This document shows positions 25,848 through 36,966 of a DNA stretch of 64,000 nt, piece by piece. Origin of the DNA: Roseobacter weihaiensis (GTDB lineage: Bacteria > Pseudomonadota > Alphaproteobacteria > Rhodobacterales > Rhodobacteraceae); the NCBI RefSeq assembly GCF_020622345.1, contig NZ_JACNMO010000005.1, positions 186,001 through 250,000 of the forward strand, written 5' to 3'. Position 1 is the first letter of the stretch. Each line of letters begins with the position of its first letter. A model generated the notes under the pieces. The model was not told where the DNA came from. It was given only the letters and a program-made list of their open reading frames with translations, and did not search any database. The position numbers and the translations under genes were made by a program.

Positions 25848-27041
25848 ATGAACATCCACGAATACCAAGCCAAAGCCCTTCTTCGCAGCTATGGCGCACC
25901 GGTCTCTGACGGTCGCGTTGTGCTCAAAGCCGAAGACGCCAAAACAGCAGCAGGTGCTTTGGACGGACCGATGTGGGTGATCAAGGCGCAAATTCATGCG
26001 GGCGGGCGCGGTAAGGGATCGTTCAAGGAAGCCGATGCCGGTGAAAAAGGCGGCGTGCGTCTGACCAAATCCGTGGCGGAAGCGGCGGAGGAAGCCAAGA
26101 AGATGCTGGGCCGCACGCTGGTCACACATCAGACCGGCCCGGCGGGCAAGCAGGTCAATCGCATCTATATCGAAGACGGCTCGGGCATCGAAACAGAACT
26201 CTACCTTGCCCTTCTGGTGGACCGTCAGACCAGCCGCATCAGCTTTGTCTGCTCTACCGAGGGCGGGATGGATATCGAAGAGGTTGCCGCCTCCACGCCC
26301 GAAAAGATCCTCAGCTTTTCCGTGGATCCCGCGTCGGGCTATCAGGCCTTTCACGGGCGCCGCATCGCCTTTGCGCTGGGACTGCAAGGCAAGCAGGTCA
26401 AGCAATGCGTGGCCTTGATGGGCACGCTCTACAAGCTCTTTGTCGACAAGGACATGGAGATGCTCGAGATCAACCCGCTGATCGTGACCGATGAAGGGGA
26501 TCTGAAGTGCCTTGATGCCAAGATGGGGTTTGACGGCAACGCGATCTACCGCCATGCGGATATCTCGGAATTGCGGGACGTGACAGAGGAAGATCCCAAA
26601 GAGCTCGAGGCGTCCAAGTATGATCTCAACTACATCGCCCTTGATGGTGAGATCGGCTGCATGGTCAACGGTGCGGGTCTGGCGATGGCCACCATGGATA
26701 TCATCAAGCTTTACGGTGCTGAGCCTGCCAACTTTCTGGATGTGGGCGGCGGGGCCACCAAGGAAAAAGTGACCGAAGCCTTCAAGATCATCACCTCCGA
26801 TCCGCAGGTCAAAGGCATCCTCGTGAACATCTTCGGCGGCATCATGCGCTGCGATGTGATCGCCGAAGGTGTGGTAGCGGCCGTGAAAGAGGTTGGCCTG
26901 CAAGTGCCTCTGGTGGTGCGTTTGGAAGGCACCAATGTGCAGCAGGGCAAGGACATCATCAACAATTCGGACGTCGATGTGATTGCCGCCGACGACCTCA
27001 AGGACGGCGCACAGAAAATCGTGAAAGCGGTCAAGGGCTGA
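25848..27041 (+). CDS. sucC: Succinyl-CoA synthetase beta subunit
   Basis: A 397-residue ATP-grasp subunit for succinyl-CoA/succinate interconversion with substrate-level phosphorylation. It has the canonical start [39 protein letters not shown], and the C-terminal CoA-ligase part [16 protein letters not shown] with its power helix. It heads the suc operon. Its partner sucD follows only after three extra small genes and a sucD fragment, which is unusual. Confidence 0.98.
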
Positions 27042-27047
27042 CGGACC

Positions 27048-27512
27048 GTGTTTGTGCGCAACACCATTATTGCCGCATCTACGCTTGGCTTGGTTGCGTG
27101 CGGTGAAGTACGACCAAACCTTACCGATGCGCGACCAACTGGCACCGGTGCTGTTCCACCGTCACAAGCACTTGGCGTGTTTCGACATGTTTGTCTTGAT
27201 CAAAATCCCAGAGAAAAATTGCTGTTCCCGTTTTCACAGGAAAATGAGACCTCCTTCAAACATGCTGACTTTGACATGCGCTTCGTGGTGACCGACGCAT
27301 CCTGCTCGATGATCGTCAAGCCAAAGGAACATGAGGGAAAAGCCAGCGCAGAGTTTGGCAACCAAGGTCCGCGCACCGCCACTGAAAGGCTCTTGGAAGA
27401 GCTTGGCCGAAATGAGCCCGAAGATACGAACCCAAATTCGCAACGACGGTTACGTCATTGCGTCGTTACAAAAGAATTGAGGAGCCAACACAATGGCCGC
27501 ATTTATCTATGA
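27048..27512 (+). CDS. Putative lipoprotein inserted after sucC
   Basis: An open frame of up to 154 residues from GTG 27048 (a second GTG at 27054 is equally plausible), six bases after sucC. The N-terminus [20 protein letters not shown] has a lipobox (LVAC). The mature part is hydrophilic with [13 protein letters not shown] and HCVVTK cysteines. The stretch is visibly less GC-rich than sucC, consistent with foreign origin. Its 3' end overlaps the sucD-like fragment at 27493 in another frame. Family not recognised. Confidence 0.6.
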
Positions 27513-27597
27513 CATCACCAAAGTGATTTTTCAGAGTCTGACCGGGTCGCAGGATAAATTCCACAGCGAACAGGCAATAGCCTATGGTCAAATCTGA
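27493..27597 (+). pseudogene. sucD' - diverged copy of the 5' end of sucD
   Basis: A 34-codon ORF ([20 protein letters not shown] and onward to AIAYGQI, then TGA) that aligns without gaps to the first codons of the intact sucD 1.2 kb downstream: 22 of about 32 residues are identical. It has its own ribosome binding site (TTGAGGAGC). About half the codon differences are synonymous, so the copy is old or came from another lineage. It is too short for enzyme activity; it could be a remnant of an insertion event or a translated leader. Confidence 0.8.
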
Positions 27598-27613
27598 GAG
27601 CGGATGACCAATC

Positions 27614-28192
27614 ATGCGCGCGCTTGCCATATCGCTCTGCCTTGCGGCCCCGGCTGCCGCGCAGACGCCTGACGCGATCCTGACGGATCTTTGGAACGAC
27701 TTTTCCAGTACATGTGCACCGTTCCTTGCAAACCCGGCGGCTGCCATGGCCCGGTCCCCGACAAACCTGCAATATCTCAGGCAGGAGCAATCGGCAGATG
27801 GCCGGGTGTTCCGGCGCTATCAGGGCCGTTGGGGGCTCGGCCAGTATCGCCTGATCGAACTCGCCATCGGCGTAGAATCGGCACATGTCTATTGCCAGAT
27901 CGGCCGGACCAGCCCCGATCGCCAATTCAATACAGATGCCATGGAAACAACCTTGCGCCGGATTCTGCCCGCCGATGGTAGCATGCGTCTGGCTGGCGGG
28001 TTTCGTACCATAACCCTTTCTGATCCCAATGAAGAAGCAGAAGGCGACGTGGATAGTGTCTCGCAGACCTTTAAGAAGTTCCTTCTCGAAGGGGCCCTCG
28101 GCGATCGTGCCGACCTTATTCTCATTGAAATGAGCTCACCGCAGGTGCTTTTCACCGTGTCGGCAACCGTCCCCTTGGAGGAACGGCAATGA
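27614..28192 (+). CDS. Exported hypothetical protein between sucC and sucD
   Basis: A 192-residue protein with a very short signal peptide (MRALAISLCLAAPAAAQ). The mature part has two cysteines (FSSTCAPF and VYCQIG) separated by about 60 residues, and RRYQGRWGLGQYRLIELAIG in between. The pattern is similar in outline to the next gene product, hinting at distant paralogy. Its stop overlaps the next start by 4 bases (ATGA), so the pair is co-translated. No family recognised. Confidence 0.7.
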   Translation: MRALAISLCLAAPAAAQTPDAILTDLWNDFSSTCAPFLANPAAAMARSPTNLQYLRQEQSADGRVFRRYQGRWGLGQYRLIELAIGVESAHVYCQIGRTSPDRQFNTDAMETTLRRILPADGSMRLAGGFRTITLSDPNEEAEGDVDSVSQTFKKFLLEGALGDRADLILIEMSSPQVLFTVSATVPLEERQ

Positions 28193-28692
28193 TCCGGTGC
28201 TCTGCCCTGTTCATAATCACTGGCGTGATGCTGATGCCCTCGCAAGTCGCTGCACAAGGCAATCTGAAAGTTGCCACCCAAAACATGAGGCTGGCCTTTG
28301 AGTTGTGCCTGCACAACTACCGTACGCCGCTGGACTTGCCTTACGCGTTTTCCAGCACCGATTTTACGCTGGGCAAGAGCCTTGATGAAGGCGTTACTGA
28401 ATTCAGCGCCCCCGGTATTTCCGGCACTTTTCAGGCCGGGTATTGCAACATTCAAACACCCGACGTCCCACTGGCCATCGCCGAAGATATGGGGCAGCGC
28501 ACCGCTGAAACGCTCTTTCCCGGCATGGTCACGCTGGGCAACCCCGAACGCAATATAAACCAACCCGTCGCCCCCTGTGACGGGCTTTCGATCTTCGCAC
28601 CGCAAATGCTCATACGCGTGACCTATTCCGCCGCGGGCAACAGTGGCGATTGTCTCAATGATGGCAGCAGTGCCATCGCCATTCAAATGTAA
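28189..28692 (+). CDS. Exported hypothetical protein just before sucD
   Basis: A 167-residue protein with a signal peptide ending VAAQG. The mature sequence has ELCLHNYRTPLDLP and, 45 residues on, GYCNIQTPD; two later cysteines (PCDGLSIF, GDCLNDG) could form a second disulfide. Starts within the ATGA overlap with the preceding gene and ends 15 bases before sucD. Secretion of a protein from a TCA-enzyme operon is unexpected; function unknown. Confidence 0.7.
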   Translation: MIRCSALFIITGVMLMPSQVAAQGNLKVATQNMRLAFELCLHNYRTPLDLPYAFSSTDFTLGKSLDEGVTEFSAPGISGTFQAGYCNIQTPDVPLAIAEDMGQRTAETLFPGMVTLGNPERNINQPVAPCDGLSIFAPQMLIRVTYSAAGNSGDCLNDGSSAIAIQM

Positions 28693-28707
28693 GTCAAAGG
28701 AAGCAAA

Positions 28708-29595
28708 ATGGCCGTACTTATCGACGAAAATACCAAGGTGATCTGTCAGGGGCTCACCGGCTCTCAGGGCACGTTTCACACCGAACAGGCCATTGCGTAC
28801 GGCACCAAGATGGTCGGCGGCGTGACCCCCGGCAAAGGGGGACAGACGCATCTGGACCTGCCGGTGTTCAACTCGGTGCACGAGGCCAAAGCCAAAACGG
28901 AGGCCAACGCGAGCGTGATCTACGTGCCGCCGCCCTTCGCCGCGGACTCGATCCTGGAGGCCATCGACGCCGAGATGGCGCTGATCGTCTGCATCACCGA
29001 AGGCATCCCTGTCTTGGACATGATGAAGGTGAAGCGCGCGCTCGAAGGCTCCAAATCCCGCCTGATCGGGCCGAACTGTCCCGGTGTCATCACGCCCGAC
29101 GCCTGCAAGATCGGAATCATGCCCGGCCATATCCATAAGCGCGGCTCCTGCGGCGTGGTCTCGCGCTCCGGCACGCTGACCTATGAGGCGGTCAAGCAGA
29201 CCACGGACCTGGGGCTGGGGCAATCCTCGGCCGTGGGCATTGGCGGCGACCCGATCAAAGGCACCGAGCACATTGACGTTTTGGAAATGTTTCTGGCCGA
29301 TGACGAGACCCAAAGCATTATCATGATTGGTGAAATCGGCGGCTCCGCCGAGGAAGACGCGGCACAGTTCCTGGCAGATGAAAAGAAAAAGGGCCGCTGG
29401 AAGCCCACCGCCGGTTTCATCGCGGGCCGCACGGCCCCTCCCGGTCGCCGCATGGGCCACGCAGGCGCAATTGTCGCGGGCGGCAAGGGTGGTGCCGAGG
29501 ACAAGATCGACGCCATGCGCGCGGCTGGCATTGTGGTGGCCGACAGCCCTGCGACGCTGGGCGAGGCCGTCAAGGAAGCAATTGAGAAAGGTTAA
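28708..29595 (+). CDS. sucD: Succinyl-CoA synthetase alpha subunit
   Basis: A 295-residue subunit that binds CoA and carries the phosphohistidine. It has the canonical start [32 protein letters not shown], and [10 protein letters not shown] with the active-site His near residue 250. The ribosome binding site AAAGGAAGC precedes ATG 28708. Its first 34 codons have a diverged copy at 27493. Confidence 0.98.
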
Positions 29596-29596
29596 G

Positions 29597-30313
29597 ATGA
29601 TCAATCGGAGCATGCTGGTTCTCGCTACGCAAGTGTGCGCTCTGTGCATGCTATCGCACGCCGACGCCCAGAGCCCTGATCAACTTCAGGCTCTGCGAGA
29701 GGCGACCAATGTCTGTTCCAACCCAGAAGTCATGCCGGATGATTTTTCGGGAGCGCTCGCTGGCTGGTCTGTCGTGGCACCTGACGATCAAGACATAAAT
29801 ATCTATGCCGCCGGCTATACGCTCCTGTATTCTGCGGGTGATACGGATGGGCTGGGCCACCCCGCTCTTACTGAGATACCTCTTTTGCACAGCGAACTTG
29901 TATCAGACATGGAGTGGCTTGTGGAACAAGTCAGAGATGATATCGCAGCAGGAAAGATCGACTACTTTGAGCATGCCAGCGGATGGCATCTTGGGTTTGC
30001 TTCGGATCGGGAGTATCCGACGCACATTGACTGCCTGTTCTGGCATGATGAGGCAAGCAGTGACATTATAGAGTTTCTGACCGCGCCATACATGAGCGCC
30101 GCACCGGTAAAGGTGGTGGGTGGCCAATACATGAAAATGGAGAGCTTTGTATTGGATTTGGACGATACCAAAGCACCTATCGACTTTAGCATCTTAATCG
30201 CCGATTCCGTCAGCCTGCTAGATACGTTTTTACCACAACTTCATCCCAAACGCTTTGCTGCTCCTGCATATCTTCTTGTCCAGTTTAGCGCTTTCAGTCG
30301 TGAAAATCGCTAG
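29597..30313 (+). CDS. Exported hypothetical protein after sucD
   Basis: A 238-residue protein starting at ATG 29597, one base after the sucD stop. It has a signal peptide (MLVLATQVCALCMLSHADAQ), then NVCSNPEV and THIDCLFWHDE cysteines and an acidic mature domain. Base composition is clearly more AT-rich than sucD and sucA, with frequent A/T third positions, suggesting transfer. Upstream extension of the frame is a shadow of sucD. Family not recognised. Confidence 0.68.
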   Translation: MINRSMLVLATQVCALCMLSHADAQSPDQLQALREATNVCSNPEVMPDDFSGALAGWSVVAPDDQDINIYAAGYTLLYSAGDTDGLGHPALTEIPLLHSELVSDMEWLVEQVRDDIAAGKIDYFEHASGWHLGFASDREYPTHIDCLFWHDEASSDIIEFLTAPYMSAAPVKVVGGQYMKMESFVLDLDDTKAPIDFSILIADSVSLLDTFLPQLHPKRFAAPAYLLVQFSAFSRENR

Positions 30314-30348
30314 CTCTTCGGCTTCAGGGGATTTTTGAGGAACAATTC

Positions 30349-30552
30349 ATGACCGAACACACCCTCAAAGACCAGTTCCATGCCTCCTCGTTCATACAGG
30401 GGCACAATGCAGCGTCTCTCGAACCGATGGATGCACACCGCGCCAATAATCTCGGCGCGGTGGAAGACGTGTTGCGGGGGGGGTTCAGGGCGATAGGACA
30501 AGGTGTTAACACGGGTTTGGCATTCCGCCGGGCGGGGGCTTGTCAATCATGA
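30349..30552 (+). pseudogene. sucA' - diverged copy of the 5' end of sucA
   Basis: A 67-codon ORF (MTEHTLKDQFHASSFIQGHN onward) whose first roughly 48 codons align with the start of intact sucA (MTDHPQNDQFHASSFMQGHN): about 28 residues identical, including DQFHASSF and QGHNA. After about codon 50 similarity is lost. A ribosome binding site (TTGAGGAAC) is kept. This repeats the pattern of sucD' at 27493: a truncated copy of the next enzyme gene, followed by a foreign-looking gene, followed by the intact enzyme gene. Confidence 0.82.
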
Positions 30553-31085
30553 CGCTTACACAGTCTGTCAAAACCTGCTTTCAAAAGTATTTCACCTTCT
30601 CGGGCCGCGCCTCCAGGTCAGAGTATTGGTGGTTCTGGCTCTTTTGCATTCTTGCCGGATTTGTGATCGGGGCTGCAGAAAGCTTCATCCGCGTGGCCTC
30701 CGGTGCCCGGGGCGGCACATCGGCTTTATCCGCCGCTTTCAGTTTACTGGTCTTTTCCCCCGCTCTGGCATCCGGATGGCGCAGATTACACGACGTTAAC
30801 AAATCCGGGTGGTGGCTGCTTGCCATTCCCGTCAGCTTGTTCTGCCTGTTGGCTGCAGGTTTCGTGGTGAACCAGATGATAATGGGAACCGTTTCGAATA
30901 TCATGATGGAAACACACCCCCCCTCAGAACTCAATGGATCAAGGGACGGTAGCACTGTTATTGTCAGCTTTGTCCTTGCGATCATCCTTCTGGCGCCCTT
31001 GCTGCTGTTGCTCTATTGGCTCACGCGCCCCTCCCAACCCGGCCCCAACAAATACGGTCCCAACCCACATGAGGTAACCCCATGA
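30549..31085 (+). CDS. DUF805 family membrane protein before sucA
   Basis: 178 residues from ATG 30549. The N-terminus CFQKYFTFSGRASRSEYWWFWLF is the DUF805 signature, followed by four predicted membrane segments and SGWRRLHDVNKSGWWLLAIPV. These proteins are small inner-membrane proteins of unknown function. The start overlaps the end of the sucA' fragment by four bases and the stop overlaps sucA by four bases (ATGA at 31082-31085), so it is translationally tied into the operon. Confidence 0.82.
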   Translation: MTLTQSVKTCFQKYFTFSGRASRSEYWWFWLFCILAGFVIGAAESFIRVASGARGGTSALSAAFSLLVFSPALASGWRRLHDVNKSGWWLLAIPVSLFCLLAAGFVVNQMIMGTVSNIMMETHPPSELNGSRDGSTVIVSFVLAIILLAPLLLLLYWLTRPSQPGPNKYGPNPHEVTP

Positions 31086-34045
31086 CCGACCATCCCCAGA
31101 ACGACCAATTCCACGCCTCGTCCTTCATGCAGGGACACAATGCCGAGTACCTAGAACAGATGTACGCGCGATACGCCAATGATCCCTCAGCTGTCGACGA
31201 GGCGTGGCAGGCATTCTTCCGGGCCATGGGAGATGATGAGGTTTCGGTCAAACACGAGGCGCAAGGCCCGAGCTGGGCGCGCACCGACTGGCCACCGCAA
31301 CCGGGCGATGATCTGACAGCCGCACTGACCGGCGAATGGGCTCCGGAACCGGAGGTCAAAGCCGCCGGTGACAAGATCAAGGCCAAGGCAGCTGAGACTG
31401 GTGTCGAGGTCTCAAACGAGCAGATCAAGCGCGCCGTGCTCGACAGTATCCGCGCGCTGATGCTGATACGAGCCTACCGCATCCGGGGCCATCTGGTGGC
31501 GGATCTCGACCCCTTGGGCATGCGTGACCAGACCCCGCACCCCGAGCTTGACCCCAAGTCCTATGGGTTCGCCGAAGCAGACATGGATCGCCCGATCTTT
31601 ATCGACAATGTACTCGGGCTCGAGCTTGCCTCCATGCGCGAGATCATGGCGATCGTGAAGCGGACCTATTGCGGCACCTTTGCGCTGCAGTACATGCATA
31701 TCTCCAACCCCGAAGAGGCCGGCTGGCTGAAAGAGCGCATCGAGGGGCTTGGCAAAGAGGTTCAGTTCACCCGCGAAGGGCGCAAGGCGATCCTGAGCAA
31801 GCTTGTCGAGGCCGAAGGCTTTGAGAAGTTCCTGCATGTCAAATACATGGGCACCAAGCGTTTTGGCCTGGATGGGGGCGAAAGCCTTGTGCCCGCGATG
31901 GAGCAGATCATCAAACGCGGTGGTGCCTTGGGTGTCAGGGATGTGGTCATCGGCATGCCGCACCGGGGGCGTCTGTCGGTCCTGGCCAATGTGATGGCCA
32001 AACCCTACCGCGCGATCTTTAACGAGTTTCAGGGCGGCAGCTTCAAGCCAGAGGATGTGGATGGATCAGGCGACGTGAAATACCATCTCGGGGCGTCCTC
32101 GGACCGGGAGTTTGACGGCAATTCCGTTCACCTGTCGCTGACCGCAAACCCCTCGCACCTCGAAGCGGTCAACCCGGTTGTGCTGGGCAAGGCCCGCGCC
32201 AAACAGGACCAGAACAACGACCCCGACCGCACCACCGTGATGCCCATTCTGCTGCACGGCGATGCGGCCTTTGCCGGACAGGGCGTGGTTGCCGAATGTT
32301 TTGCGCTGTCGGGTCTACGCGGGCACAAGACGGGCGGCACCATGCATCTGGTGGTCAACAACCAGATCGGCTTTACCACGGCGCCGCATTTCAGCCGCTC
32401 CTCGCCCTACCCGACCGACAATGCACTGGTGGTCGAGGCGCCGATTTTCCATGTGAACGGCGATGACCCGGAGGCGGTCGTGCATGCGGCCAAGGTCGCA
32501 ACGGAGTTTCGCCAGAAGTTCCACAAGGACGTGGTGATTGACATCTTCTGCTACCGCCGGTTCGGGCACAACGAAGGCGACGAGCCGATGTTCACCAACC
32601 CGATCATGTATAAGAAGATCAAGGGGCACAAAACCACGCTGAGCCTCTACACCGAACGGCTGGTCAAGGACGGCCTGATCCCCGAAGGCGAGATCGAGGA
32701 TATGAAGGCCGCCTTCCAGGTCCACATGAACGAAGAATTCGAAGCCGGCAAGGAATACCGCCCGAACAAAGCGGACTGGCTGGACGGCAAGTGGTCTCAT
32801 CTCGATAAGATGACCGAAAAGAGATATCAGCGCGGAAAGACCGCCATCTCAAAGACCACGATGAAAGAAGTGGGCCGTGCCCTCTCGATCCTGCCCGAGG
32901 GTCATCCGGTTCACAAAACCGTCGGGCGCCTTTTCGAAGCGAAAAAGCAGATGTTCGACAGCGGTAAAGGCTTTGACTGGGCCACGGCCGAGGCACTGGC
33001 CTTCGGGTCGCTGCTAACAGAAGGCTACCCTGTGCGCCTGGCGGGACAGGACAGCACGCGCGGCACCTTTTCGCAGCGCCATTCCGGTCTGGTGAACCAG
33101 AACACCGAGGAACGCTACTACCCGCTCAACAACATCAAGTCGGGTCAGGCCCAGTACGAGGCCATCGACTCGATGCTCAGCGAATACGCGGTTCTGGGCT
33201 TCGAATACGGGTATTCGATGGCCGAACCCAACGCGCTGACCCTCTGGGAGGCACAGTTCGGTGATTTTGCCAACGGCGCGCAGATCATGTTCGACCAGTT
33301 CATCTCCTCGGGCGAAAGCAAATGGCTGCGCATGTCAGGTCTTGTCTGCCTGCTGCCCCACGGGTTCGAAGGACAGGGGCCGGAGCACTCCTCTGCCCGG
33401 CTGGAGCGCTTCTTGCAAATGTGCGGGCAGGACAACTGGATCGTGGCCAATTGCACGACACCGGCAAATTACTTCCATATTCTGCGCCGCCAGATCCACC
33501 GCAGTTTCCGCAAACCTCTGATCCTGATGACGCCCAAATCGCTCCTGCGCCACAAGCTGGCTGTCAGCAACGCGGAGGAATTCACCACCGGGTCGAGTTT
33601 TCACCGCCTGATGTGGGATGACGCGCAGCAGGGCATTTCCGACACCAAACTGGTGCCCGACGCCAAGATCAAACGCGTGGTGATGTGTTCGGGCAAGGTC
33701 TACTACGACCTGCTGGAAGAACGCGACGAGCGCGGCATTGACGACATCTACCTTCTGCGCATCGAGCAGTTCTATCCCTTCCCCGCCCAGTCTGCGGTCA
33801 AGGAGCTGGAGCGTTTCAAGCAGGCCGAAGTGATCTGGTGTCAGGAAGAACCCAAGAACCAGGGGGCCTGGACCTTTATCGAGCCCAACATCGAATGGGT
33901 TCTGGGCCGCATAAAAGCCAAACATCCGCGCCCCCGCTATGTGGGCCGCGCGACATCCGCCAGCCCTGCCACCGGGTTGGCCTCTCAGCACAAAGCACAG
34001 CAAGCAGCCCTCGTGAACGAAGCGCTGACGATTGAAGGGAACTAA
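31082..34045 (+). CDS. sucA: 2-oxoglutarate dehydrogenase E1 component
   Basis: A 987-residue thiamine-diphosphate enzyme decarboxylating 2-oxoglutarate. The start MTDHPQNDQFHASSFMQGHN, HRGRLSVLANVMAKP, the ThDP-binding region GDAAFAGQGVV near residue 394, and the transketolase-like C-terminal half (STRGTFSQRHSGL, ENVLPLPHGFEGQGPEHSSAR-like block) are all in place. Length is standard. It is followed by sucB after 3 bases. Confidence 0.98.
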   Translation: MTDHPQNDQFHASSFMQGHNAEYLEQMYARYANDPSAVDEAWQAFFRAMGDDEVSVKHEAQGPSWARTDWPPQPGDDLTAALTGEWAPEPEVKAAGDKIKAKAAETGVEVSNEQIKRAVLDSIRALMLIRAYRIRGHLVADLDPLGMRDQTPHPELDPKSYGFAEADMDRPIFIDNVLGLELASMREIMAIVKRTYCGTFALQYMHISNPEEAGWLKERIEGLGKEVQFTREGRKAILSKLVEAEGFEKFLHVKYMGTKRFGLDGGESLVPAMEQIIKRGGALGVRDVVIGMPHRGRLSVLANVMAKPYRAIFNEFQGGSFKPEDVDGSGDVKYHLGASSDREFDGNSVHLSLTANPSHLEAVNPVVLGKARAKQDQNNDPDRTTVMPILLHGDAAFAGQGVVAECFALSGLRGHKTGGTMHLVVNNQIGFTTAPHFSRSSPYPTDNALVVEAPIFHVNGDDPEAVVHAAKVATEFRQKFHKDVVIDIFCYRRFGHNEGDEPMFTNPIMYKKIKGHKTTLSLYTERLVKDGLIPEGEIEDMKAAFQVHMNEEFEAGKEYRPNKADWLDGKWSHLDKMTEKRYQRGKTAISKTTMKEVGRALSILPEGHPVHKTVGRLFEAKKQMFDSGKGFDWATAEALAFGSLLTEGYPVRLAGQDSTRGTFSQRHSGLVNQNTEERYYPLNNIKSGQAQYEAIDSMLSEYAVLGFEYGYSMAEPNALTLWEAQFGDFANGAQIMFDQFISSGESKWLRMSGLVCLLPHGFEGQGPEHSSARLERFLQMCGQDNWIVANCTTPANYFHILRRQIHRSFRKPLILMTPKSLLRHKLAVSNAEEFTTGSSFHRLMWDDAQQGISDTKLVPDAKIKRVVMCSGKVYYDLLEERDERGIDDIYLLRIEQFYPFPAQSAVKELERFKQAEVIWCQEEPKNQGAWTFIEPNIEWVLGRIKAKHPRPRYVGRATSASPATGLASQHKAQQAALVNEALTIEGN

Positions 34046-34048
34046 GCA

Positions 34049-35563
34049 ATGACCACCGAAGTACGCGTACCCACCTTGGGCGAATCCGTGACCGAGGCCA
34101 CCGTCGCCACATGGTTCAAAAAACCAGGCGAGACGGTGGCGGTTGACGAGATGCTCTGCGAACTGGAAACCGACAAGGTGACGGTCGAAGTGCCCTCGCC
34201 TGTTGCAGGCACATTGGCCGAGGTCGTGGCCGCAGAAGGAGACACCGTCGGCGTCGATGCGCTGTTGGCCACGGTCACCGAAGGCGCAGAGGGCTCTGCA
34301 ACTGCCTCCCCCCCAAGCACGGAGAAGAAACCCGCCGAACCTGAAACGGCAGAACAGCCGTCAGGCGCTTCGGTTAACGTCATGGTCCCCACCTTGGGCG
34401 AATCCGTGGCCGAGGCCACCGTCAGCACGTGGTTCAAAGCGGTGGGTGACAGCGTGGCGCAGGACGAAATGCTTTGCGAGCTGGAAACCGACAAGGTCAG
34501 CGTCGAGGTGCCCGCCCCCGCTGCCGGGACGATCACCGAAATCCTCGCAGCGGAAGGCAGCACCATTCAGGCGGGTGGCACGCTGGCGGTAATGTCTTCG
34601 GGTGACGCCGCCGCCGCGACCCCAAAGGCAGAGCCCGCTGTGGCACCAGCCCCCGCTGCCGGCGGCAAGGATGTGGAAGACGCGCCATCTGCCAAGAAGG
34701 CCATGGCCGAAGCAGGCATCAGCCGGGATCACGTCACCGGCACGGGTCGCGATGGGCGCATCATGAAGGACGATGTGGCCAGTGCGATCGCCGCCGCCAG
34801 CGCAGCCCCTGCACCTGCCCCCGCCCCGGTCGTGGCCCGCGCCCCGGTCTCTGCCGATGATGCGAGCCGTGAAGAGCGGGTCAAGATGACCCGGTTGCGC
34901 CAGACCATCGCCAAGCGCCTGAAGGACAGCCAGAACACGGCGGCGATGCTGACCACCTACAACGAGGTGGACATGACCGAGGTCATGGCGCTGCGCAATG
35001 AATACAAGGACCTGTTCCTCAAGAAACACGGGGTGAAGCTGGGGTTCATGTCGTTCTTCACCAAGGCCTGTTGCCACGCCCTGCGCGAGGTGCCCGAGGT
35101 CAATGCCGAGATCGACGGCACCGATATCGTCTACAAGAACTTCGTGCATATGGGCATCGCCGCAGGCACCCCCACGGGGTTGGTGGTACCGGTGATCCGC
35201 GACGCGGATGCGATGAGCTTCCACGCCATCGAACAAGCCATCGCCGAAAAGGGCGCGCGCGCGCGCGACGGTAAACTGTCCATGGCTGAGATGCAGGGCG
35301 GCACGTTTACCATTTCAAACGGTGGGGTCTACGGCTCGCTGATGAGCTCTCCGATCCTGAACCCGCCGCAATCGGGCATCCTTGGCATGCACAAGATCCA
35401 GGACCGCCCGATGGTGGTGAACGGAGAGATCGTGATCCGCCCGATGATGTATCTGGCGCTGTCCTATGACCACCGGATCGTCGACGGCAAAGGAGCGGTA
35501 ACCTTCCTCGTGCGGGTGAAAGAAGCGCTGGAGGATCCGCGGCGGTTGTTGATGGATTTGTGA
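34049..35563 (+). CDS. sucB: Dihydrolipoyl succinyltransferase (E2) with two lipoyl domains
   Basis: A 504-residue E2 core of the 2-oxoglutarate dehydrogenase complex. Two lipoyl domains are in tandem, with lipoylated Lys in [11 protein letters not shown] (about residue 43) and [11 protein letters not shown] (about 150). They are followed by the E3-binding domain ([20 protein letters not shown]) and the catalytic domain ending [16 protein letters not shown] with the H-x3-D motif. Most SucB proteins have one lipoyl domain. The two domain-coding stretches are nearly identical in DNA at 34072-34120 and 34387-34437, suggesting a recent duplication or conversion. Confidence 0.97.
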
Positions 35564-35574
35564 GGTGATTTGGA

Positions 35575-35973
35575 ATGTCGATGGCTAAAGCCGGAGCGTT
35601 TGTTGTTCTACTTCTGGGCCTTTCAGCCTGCAATGAAGATAAGTTCGGAGAAATCGGTTACTTCAAAGGTAACAACAACAACCGCGTTTTCGTGCTGAAA
35701 GCTACCGAGCAAGTAGGCGAGGATGATGTGGCTGAACGCGCTGCAAAGCTGATGCAGACGAACGGACGGATGACAATCGCATTCGTTGCTGAGCAAGGCG
35801 TTGCAGACCTAACTGACATCGTTACGCAGGCACAGGACTTTCAACGCGCCAACGGTGAAATGCTAGACCGTCACGAGCTTTGGCGATGGTGGTACAGACG
35901 AAGTCCCAATGGGGAAGAAACCTTGGTGGACTGCGCGCTAGGTGGAGGCACCGTTTGCGACGAGCCATTATGA
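35575..35973 (+). CDS. Putative lipoprotein after sucB
   Basis: A 132-residue protein with a lipoprotein signal (AGAFVVLLLGLSACNEDKFG; lipobox LSAC). The mature part has KGNNNNRVFVLKATEQVGEDD and two C-terminal cysteines (VDCALGGGTVCDEP). It starts 12 bases after sucB. Composition is poorer in GC than sucB, like the other inserted genes of this operon. Function unknown. Confidence 0.68.
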   Translation: MSMAKAGAFVVLLLGLSACNEDKFGEIGYFKGNNNNRVFVLKATEQVGEDDVAERAAKLMQTNGRMTIAFVAEQGVADLTDIVTQAQDFQRANGEMLDRHELWRWWYRRSPNGEETLVDCALGGGTVCDEPL

Positions 35974-36052
35974 CTGATCTTCACCATGTGCGATCCCAAC
36001 GCTCAAGCCGCATAGAACGGATATCGCGCGCCCACCGGGAGGCGGCCAAGCG

Positions 36053-36098
36053 CCCGCCCGTAAAACCGAAGGTTTGCCTTCGGCAAAACGGGGGCGGG
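36053..36098 (+). other. Large intercistronic hairpin before the MAPEG-lpd genes
   Basis: Outer arms CCCGCCCGT (36053-36061) and ACGGGGGCGGG (36088-36098) and a perfect inner stem CCGAAGG/CCTTCGG with a TTTG loop. A second hairpin, CGGCTTG (36127-36133) with CAAGCCG (36144-36150), follows. No U-run is present, so transcript processing or attenuation is more likely than simple termination. They sit in the 202-base gap before the first MAPEG gene. Confidence 0.5.
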
Positions 36099-36175
36099 TC
36101 GGTCGCTGGCCATGACTTAAGCGTCGCGGCTTGGGATAAAACGCAAGCCGGGCAAATAACTCCAGGAGAAAAAAC

Positions 36176-36559
36176 ATGACCGAAATCCAAATCCTCGCCC
36201 TCTACGGCCTCTTGGTCATCCTGACCCTCATCCTGCAAGCCACGGGCGGGCTGACGCAGCTGGGCATGGGCTACCTGCTGGGCAGCCGCGATGAGGAGCG
36301 CACCGTCTCGGGCATCGCCGGGCGGCTCGAACGCGCGCTCAACAACTCCGTCACCGCCATGGTGCTCTTTGCCCCGGCGGTGCTGCTGATCGTTGTCACC
36401 GACAGCAGCACCAATCAGACCCTGCTCGCGGCACAGGCATTCCTGATCGCCCGCATCGTCTACCTGCCCTCCTACGCCTTCGGGATCACGGGGCTGCGCA
36501 GCCTGGCATGGGTGGTCGGCATCGTGGCCACCATCACGCTCTACCTGCTCGCCCTATGA
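36176..36559 (+). CDS. MAPEG family membrane protein (first of tandem pair)
   Basis: A 127-residue protein with four membrane helices and the MAPEG-type motifs RLERALNNSVTAMVLFAPA and ARIVYLPSYAFGITGLRSLAW. MAPEG proteins are glutathione- or lipid-handling membrane enzymes, but bacterial members of this type are uncharacterised. It is translationally coupled by ATGA (36556-36559) to a second, related gene. Ribosome binding site CCAGGAG precedes the ATG. Confidence 0.85.
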   Translation: MTEIQILALYGLLVILTLILQATGGLTQLGMGYLLGSRDEERTVSGIAGRLERALNNSVTAMVLFAPAVLLIVVTDSSTNQTLLAAQAFLIARIVYLPSYAFGITGLRSLAWVVGIVATITLYLLAL

Positions 36560-36966
36560 CACCCGAACTCACCGTCCTGACCCTGGCCGCGCTGTTGCAG
36601 GCGGTGCAATTCGCCCTGATGGCGATCCCGACCAATCTTGAGCTCGGCGCAGGCAAGACGCTCAGCCCGCGTGACCCCGAACGCCTGGGCGGCAGCCTGC
36701 AGGATCAGGTCTCGCCGCGCACCGGTCGGCTGATCCGCGCGATGAATAACCATTTTGAGGCCCTCATTCTCTTTACCATCGCCGTGCTGGTCGTCACCTT
36801 GTCAGGCCAGTCCGGCCCCTTCACCACTGCCTGCGCCTGGATCTATCTGGTTGCGCGGGTCGCCTATGTCCCGGTCTATGCTTACGGGCTGACCCCCTGG
36901 CGATCCCTGATCTGGGGTGTCGGGTTTTTCGCCACTCTCGCAATGCTGCTTGCAGCGCTTCTCTGA
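36556..36966 (+). CDS. MAPEG family membrane protein (second of tandem pair)
   Basis: 136 residues, four helices, with RLIRAMNNHFEALILFTIAVL and ARVAYVPVYAYGLTPWRSLIW, the same two motif blocks as the first copy, so the pair arose by tandem duplication. This copy keeps the N-N-x-x-E pattern (NNHFE) while the first has NNSVT; the Glu is usual in MAPEG proteins. The start lies in the ATGA overlap. About 120 bases separate it from lpd. Confidence 0.85.
   Translation: MTPELTVLTLAALLQAVQFALMAIPTNLELGAGKTLSPRDPERLGGSLQDQVSPRTGRLIRAMNNHFEALILFTIAVLVVTLSGQSGPFTTACAWIYLVARVAYVPVYAYGLTPWRSLIWGVGFFATLAMLLAALL

Follow-up and report, generated by a model that had tools for sequence, protein, structure and literature searches.

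Within the suc operon of Roseobacter weihaiensis, the gaps located 3′ of sucC, sucD and sucB are, on balance, probably cargo slots inside an essential tricarboxylic acid (TCA) cycle operon. The operon was analysed in a stretch of 64,000 nucleotides (contig NZ_JACNMO010000005.1, positions 186,001–250,000; hereafter the window) of the 5.35 Mb genome, and all of its genes in this stretch are found on the plus strand. According to the explanation that we favour, and to which this estimate applies as a whole, alleles of the inserted (cargo) genes would be exchanged through the flanking core genes, and linear DNA would be inserted in a way that leaves translated stubs of core genes behind. In the window, slot 1 (sucC–sucD) contains A154, the stub sucD′, B192 and C167, and slot 2 (sucD–sucA) contains D238, the stub sucA′ and a DUF805 gene. 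The order given in an earlier note on this DNA for both gaps, namely an exported gene, a 5′ stub, one or more small genes and the intact suc gene, was confirmed by open reading frames (ORFs) and profile matches. Judged by titles and abstract openings, none of the papers listed in the literature search reports insertions in the suc operon.

For comparison, suc regions from 18 congeneric species and 120 other genera of Rhodobacteraceae, a family of mostly marine bacteria, were used. Across 138 family genomes, the length of the sucC–sucD gap ranges from 3 to 3270 bp, and its gene content changes. Gaps longer than 300 bp are found between sucC and sucD in all 18 measurable genus members and in 67 of the 120 other genera, and between sucD and sucA in 19 of 19 genus members and 66 of 116 other genera. 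No gap of this size was observed between sucA and sucB in any of 109 genomes, the longest being 128 bp. In total, 174 genes in 68 sequence clusters were called in the sucC–sucD slot, and 113 genes in 50 clusters in the sucD–sucA slot; because genes were called with a simple codon model plus longest-ORF filling and signal peptides with a heuristic rule, the counts of genes, clusters, singletons and signals are approximate. The sucC–sucD gap thereby shows a feature by which a hotspot of horizontal gene transfer (HGT) is recognised, a rapid turnover of genes between one constant pair of core genes. The proposal of the earlier note that the suc operon is a site of gene turnover is supported by these family-wide variable gaps, and the clean operons that it suggested looking for in relatives do exist, with sucC–sucD junctions of 3–6 bp. 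The same genes at the same sites in all Rhodobacterales, named there as an observation that would speak for ancient vertical inheritance, were not seen: most of the families are patchy, though DUF805 is widespread.

In a survey of the class, 133 genomes were searched for sucC and sucD; besides that of the window, 101 had both genes, which lie distant from each other in one of them. The sucC–sucD gap exceeds 250 bp in 8 of the remaining 100 genomes, one of which belongs to the family of the window, leaving 7 of 99 outside it; some of these seven may belong to the same taxonomic order as the window. The cargo of the first slot follows the direction of the operon: of the sucC–sucD gaps of 300 bp or more, 66 have their best ORF on the operon strand and one on the opposite strand, with 18 undecided, and the spacing between neighbouring cargo genes is exactly −4 in 41 of 91 cases.

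The earlier note called the exported genes foreign-looking; an arrival from elsewhere is not supported by the distribution of the exported families tested, which in other genera are almost confined to this slot. Relatives of C167 were detected in 9 of 198 family genomes, and all 10 matches lie within about 1.3 kb upstream of sucD. The lipoprotein family has matches in 13 of 198 genomes, 12 of them within 3 kb upstream of sucD and one, a weak match (E-value, 6e-4), elsewhere. The B192 family was found in 7 of 197 genomes, with five strong matches in the slot and two weak ones not placed there, and A154 has one confident relative among 247 other genomes (E-value, 2e-7), in the same slot of genome G080; five further A154 matches with E-values of 0.003–0.008 were left uncounted. 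A pattern search returned five loci, two of them from genomes already in the sample, and in all five the C167 relatives lie between sucC and sucD or, in L162, where the contig ends before sucC, immediately upstream of sucD. The test covered the C167, B192, lipoprotein and A154 families. As judged from sequence, this cargo is a set of slot residents and not random foreign DNA. The greater AT-richness of the inserted genes claimed in the earlier note holds within the window, where the G–C content of the five genes is 0.51–0.59 and that of sucC, sucD, sucA and sucB 0.58–0.64, and does not hold family-wide: over all genomes, the mean difference between cargo and core genes is +0.007 in sucC–sucD (n = 157) and −0.013 in sucD–sucA (n = 102). 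A foreign origin by composition was rejected on this ground.

Both stubs of the window match profiles of the core-gene 5′ ends (sucD at 27485–27587, sucA at 30344–30498; E-values in the table), and neither profile matches the reversed gaps. By sequence they are real core-gene copies, not chance resemblances, with protein identities of 69% over 32 residues for sucD′ and 56% over 50 residues for sucA′. Five stubs were found in all: the two of the window, a sucD′ in L019 and another in L029, which belongs to another genus, and a sucA′ in L009. The recurring junction pattern described in the earlier note, gene, 5′ stub, gene and intact core gene, is therefore also present in L019, L029 and L009. 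Each stub is the 5′ end of the adjacent downstream gene, lies on the operon strand and stands immediately after the first cargo gene. The stub of L019 has the same end point as sucD′ of the window, with a different first gene upstream. In sucC–sucD and sucD–sucA gaps, neither a 3′ remnant of sucC, sucD or sucA nor a 5′ piece of sucC or sucB was detected beyond weak matches (E-values of 0.027 or worse); the mdh–sucC and sucB–lpd gaps gave no stub beyond weak matches (E-values of 0.06 or worse).

All of the five stubs have the layout of a leader cistron, with a start of their own, an open frame and a stop by the next start; three of the stops overlap the next start (ATGA), and the other two leave 13 and 16 nucleotides. 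It is quite possible, if short of probable, that the stubs are passive scars without a role, their frames being open by luck, and both the drift of their peptides and the small number of cases would suit this. The differing codons of the stubs count 10/11, 13/10, 7/3, 22/13 and 41/15 nonsynonymous/synonymous, and the stubs of the window and L019 differ by a nonsynonymous divergence (dN) of 0.39 and a synonymous divergence (dS) of 0.76, whereas the nonsynonymous proportions of the core genes there are 0.01–0.03. The preservation of start and frame in every case speaks against mere scars, as do the three ATGA overlaps: in a neutral simulation, the product of the probabilities of open frames was about 3e-5 with all divergence placed on the stub and 1.3e-3 with 60% placed on it, figures that ignore insertions and deletions and treat as independent five stubs of which those of the window and L019 are probably of one origin. 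Because the frames are intact while the peptides have drifted, the open frame seems to be kept more strictly than the peptide.

In the mechanism that we propose, alleles would move between related bacteria by recombination of donor DNA in the conserved flanking core genes. A donor carrying a new gene X alone between two core genes would supply it on a linear fragment, one end of which would join homologously in the upstream core gene, while its opposite end, falling within the 5′ portion of the downstream core gene, would join illegitimately right before the resident cargo. The product would have the order upstream core gene, X, 5′ stub, old cargo and downstream core gene, and the stub would stay as a cistron with an open frame, presumably translated, from which ribosomes pass on to the old cargo, as the open frames and the stop/start spacing suggest. 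The joining reaction may be homology-facilitated illegitimate recombination, which uses short sequence identity at the illegitimate joint. The observed order and the polarity described below fit this reaction, the homologous side of which is not directly visible. Homology-facilitated illegitimate recombination is the integration of linear DNA with one homologous and one illegitimate end (PMC3240628); it can yield the observed order, and is known from experiments, whereas here it would be read from old junctions.

The earlier note had proposed a Campbell-type integration, in which a circle carrying one or more new genes and the 5′ end of the downstream core gene enters by a single crossover. 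This would leave a truncated copy upstream and an intact gene downstream, as observed, and the DUF805 protein of the window, encoded between the two copies, matches the phage membrane-protein family phrog_12855 (E-value, 2.3e-14), filed under ‘moron, auxiliary metabolic gene and host takeover’. In such an integration, the newcomers would sit between the copies, but the family frequencies show the opposite: the genes between the copies belong to the commoner families (DUF805, clusters 12-3 and cluster 2), and it is the gene upstream of the stub that is rare, a comparison of family frequencies and not of strain pairs. In addition, none of the five cargo genes of the window matches an integrase, transposase or plasmid family in Pfam, PHROG or NCBIfam, so that the turnover, as judged on these five genes, is without a recognisable mobile element. 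The circle is therefore disfavoured, and we consider it very unlikely. Likewise, a simple tandem duplication of cargo plus stub in slot 2 was rejected, because D238 and DUF805 fall into different clusters.

The same polarity, with rare genes on the left and common genes on the right, was observed over the genus. On the genus tree, the common genes are those on the right (clusters 12-3 in one clade and, in the other clade, mostly 2-4-5 or 2-4-8), DUF805 adjoins sucA in most genomes, and rare genes stand on the left. In 15 of 18 genus genomes, the gene beside sucC is from a rarer cluster than the gene beside sucD (sign test, p = 0.008, which ignores relatedness). Family-wide, singletons make up 11 of 35 first genes of multi-gene gaps, compared with 4 of 35 last genes and 1 of 42 middle genes (first versus last, p = 0.08; first versus rest, p = 0.001). 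In the sucB–lpd slot, a leading gene of a rare cluster precedes the MAPEG genes in 17 of 18 genus genomes, the slot of L014 beginning with MAPEG. The layout of this third slot resembles that of the other slots, and some congeners have an extra gene between the two MAPEG genes.

The cargo genes diverge faster than the concatenated core, by 1.4- to 3.7-fold as cluster medians and by 1.9- to 3.2-fold for the exported clusters 2, 4, 12 and 3. Against this background, a few alleles look recently exchanged, as far as sequence distances tell. The C167 genes of the window and L016 are 0.128 apart, compared with 0.167 for the core genes (the median ratio of the cluster is 3.15), clusters 5 and 16 of L004 and L005 differ by 0.009 with the core at 0.052, and the DUF805 genes of L016 and L019 differ by 0.018 with the core at 0.094. 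Since L004/L005 and L016/L019 are sisters on the tree, only the C167 pair speaks beyond sister species. In L004/L005, block identity is 0.98–0.99 from the 3′ end of sucC through cluster 16, 0.92–0.97 in clusters 2 and 4, and 0.99–1.00 through cluster 5 into the 5′ end of sucD (0.97); the other sucC and sucD blocks range from 0.85 to 0.96, except for one sucC block of 0.99.

Several observations count against the favoured explanation. The stubs number just five in about 183 kb of gap sequence, perhaps from four independent events, and no donor was identified. A search with the sucA N-terminus over 394 family genomes (376 with a match) revealed no further sucA stub; six other genomes have two sucA matches, which are either weak ones on other contigs or a contig-end piece (G282), and the search for sucD stubs covered the fetched loci. 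The lack of 3′ stubs (0 versus 4–5) is weak as evidence (p = 0.03–0.06), and three of the 18 genus genomes (L007, L015 and L020) have a first cluster that is commoner than their last. In the sucD–sucA gaps co-direction is weaker, with 43 best ORFs on the operon strand, 8 on the opposite strand and 34 undecided. The stub peptides are partly constrained, the ratio of nonsynonymous to synonymous proportions (pN/pS) against their own core gene being 0.19–0.57, and this residual constraint may be current or left from their past as core genes. Because the sucA blocks of L004/L005 also vary, from 0.81 to 0.99, the tract edges in this pair are suggestive and not sharp.

The stub of L009, finally, is nearest to its own sucA (rank 1 of 135), as would be expected if the slots were filled mainly by vertical inheritance of very fast-evolving genes with frequent loss, and the stubs were decayed local, perhaps full-length, duplications of sucD or sucA. 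That families remain in their slot, that divergence ratios are fairly even across the genus for most pairs in clusters 2 and 4, and that sister species account for two of the three anomalously close cases would also agree with such a history. It fits poorly with C167 of the window, which is nearer to that of L016 than the core genes are, though L019, the sister of L016, has a divergent copy, and with the different first genes that precede the same sucD′ stub in the window and L019. The stubs of the window are, moreover, nearer to core genes of other species than to their own, which rank 28 of 139 and 13 of 135 over short stretches of 96 and 150 nucleotides. A mainly vertical history with local duplication therefore seems rather doubtful to us.

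Under the slot explanation, gene transfer agents or natural transformation would be the likely carriers of the linear DNA. Gene transfer agents are plausible, because RcGTA particles package linear DNA at random in pieces of about 4.5 kb and most Rhodobacterales genomes have conserved gene clusters related to that of RcGTA (PMC9690577); this fragment size would suffice for a slot with short flanks, and a role here is conjectural. Operons reportedly gain new genes rarely, and then at their edges (PMC5635113). The slots resemble the HGT hotspots with flanking core-gene recombination described in the same 2017 paper in the rapid turnover between constant core genes, in having no integrase in the slots of the window, and in a suggestive exchange tract that seems to reach into flanking core genes in one species pair. 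Unlike those hotspots, they lie inside an essential operon, and their cargo is co-directional, often overlapping, slot-specific and accompanied by 5′ stubs. The stubs are similar to designs for translational coupling with bicistronic leaders (PMC12548453, PMC5995908) in that a short upstream ORF ends at or near the next start, whereas the leader in the suc operon would be of natural origin, a housekeeping-gene stub, and the coupling is putative.

Table. Genes, stubs and slots of the suc operon in the window
Feature	Position	Strand	Evidence and remarks
sucC, succinyl-CoA synthetase beta, upstream flank of slot 1	25848..27041	+	ORF; NCBIfam NF001913, E 1.4e-175
A154, lipoprotein-like cargo, first in slot 1 (sucC–sucD)	27048..27512	+	ORF; 3′ end probably frameshifted
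sucD′ stub, 34-codon ORF copying the sucD 5′ end	27493..27597	+	nhmmer, E 1.9e-18
B192, cargo protein, predicted exported	27614..28192	+	2 Cys conserved in alignment; model pLDDT 81
C167, cargo protein, predicted exported	28189..28692	+	ATGA overlap with B192; alignment; model pLDDT 85
sucD, succinyl-CoA synthetase alpha, intact	28708..29595	+	NCBIfam NF004230, E 1.5e-139
D238, predicted exported cargo, first in slot 2 (sucD–sucA)	29597..30313	+	clusters with same-slot gene of L088
sucA′ stub, 67-codon ORF opening with the sucA 5′ end	30349..30552	+	nhmmer, E 6.3e-27; stop overlaps next start (ATGA)
DUF805 membrane protein, common slot 2 resident	30549..31085	+	Pfam PF05656, E 1.2e-27
sucA, 2-oxoglutarate dehydrogenase E1, intact	31082..34045	+	NCBIfam NF006914
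sucB	34049..35563	+	ORF; sucA–sucB gap is the insertion-free internal control
Slot 3 (sucB–lpd)	35575..36966	+	variable first gene 35575–35973, then MAPEG pair (PF01124)

The frame of A154 continues into the stub, and by eye another frame stops right before the ribosome-binding site of the stub, so the original C-terminus of A154 was probably lost by a frameshift. A154 and D238 have no match in Pfam, PHROG or NCBIfam. The DUF805 protein, with 97 bits against a gathering score of 25.7 for PF05656, is the sole cargo protein of the window above the Pfam cut-off (n = 5). Among the gap genes, to which the count is confined, DUF805 has 54 members, all of them in sucD–sucA. An Rfam scan found nothing, and a scan for promoters and terminators stayed near chance level. 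A second sucC/sucD pair, 50–52% identical, is located elsewhere in the genome (G000:C26:15904-17978), and many congeners have a second sucD-like gene.

The earlier note described the inserted genes as mostly exported with paired cysteines, which is roughly true of sucC–sucD, where 95 of 174 proteins have a Sec or lipoprotein signal by the heuristic, and less so of sucD–sucA (27 of 113). Exactly two cysteines beyond residue 20 were counted in 82 of the 174 sucC–sucD proteins, two being the commonest number. Profile comparison of 24 clusters linked exported ones (12-14, 96.5%; 3-38, 91%; 2-38, 71%; 3-40, 70%); scores were low for most of the 276 cluster pairs, and no link was obtained between clusters 3 (C167) and 12 (B192). 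AlphaFold models of C167 and B192 (predicted local distance difference test, pLDDT, 85 and 81) have a common order of elements, H H E E E E H E E E E, which hints, at the level of models, that the two proteins are one diverged superfamily. The earlier note suggested a search for distant homology among the inserted proteins by structure prediction; the common element order is a hint of it, without a profile link between the two or a significant match in PDB, where the best hit of B192 was PsbP (E-value, 0.02) and all hits of C167 had E-values of 0.076 or worse. A likeness of B192 to PsbP or DcrB is faint and is not claimed. C167 gave no match in plasmids and, by pattern search, none in viral contigs, and D238 gave none in phages, these two being the proteins searched.

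Some of the cargo differs between species in other ways. In the L004–L015 clade, the sucC–sucD cargo near or beside sucD is in turn a 265-aa protein whose N-terminus is Cys-rich or a 270-aa protein, for which we use the putative working labels methyltransferase-like and GT25-like. The sucC–sucD slots of L018 and L021 contain long members of the C167 cluster (327–331 aa), which may be fused double-domain forms. Cluster 7 is a 371-aa family with 8 genes in the sucC–sucD slot of other genera, and its N-terminus has a putative sulfotransferase-like motif.

Judging from their rate of change, predicted export and exchange, the slot proteins might, tentatively, be fast-evolving proteins of the periplasm or outer membrane on which phages, competitors or hosts exert pressure and which are co-expressed with the TCA genes; any benefit is likewise conjectural. 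An extended form of the explanation, in which the suc operon serves as a device for exchanging genes of exported proteins, seems unlikely to us: slot-specific families would be swapped between species on DNA of gene transfer agent size, with the TCA genes as homology arms, newcomers placed behind the upstream core gene, and stubs kept as translation adaptors for the older cargo.

The operon described here is a central-metabolism operon with up to three internal high-turnover slots and, in the sucA–sucB gap, a built-in insertion-free control. The slots point to a group of exported, slot-bound proteins that are encoded in one operon with TCA genes and, in those checked, belong to no Pfam family, a Pfam match being absent also in six other slot proteins that were examined. 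If the explanation is true, the stubs would record the direction and the joining mode of single insertions, and would suggest a natural leader-cistron coupling.

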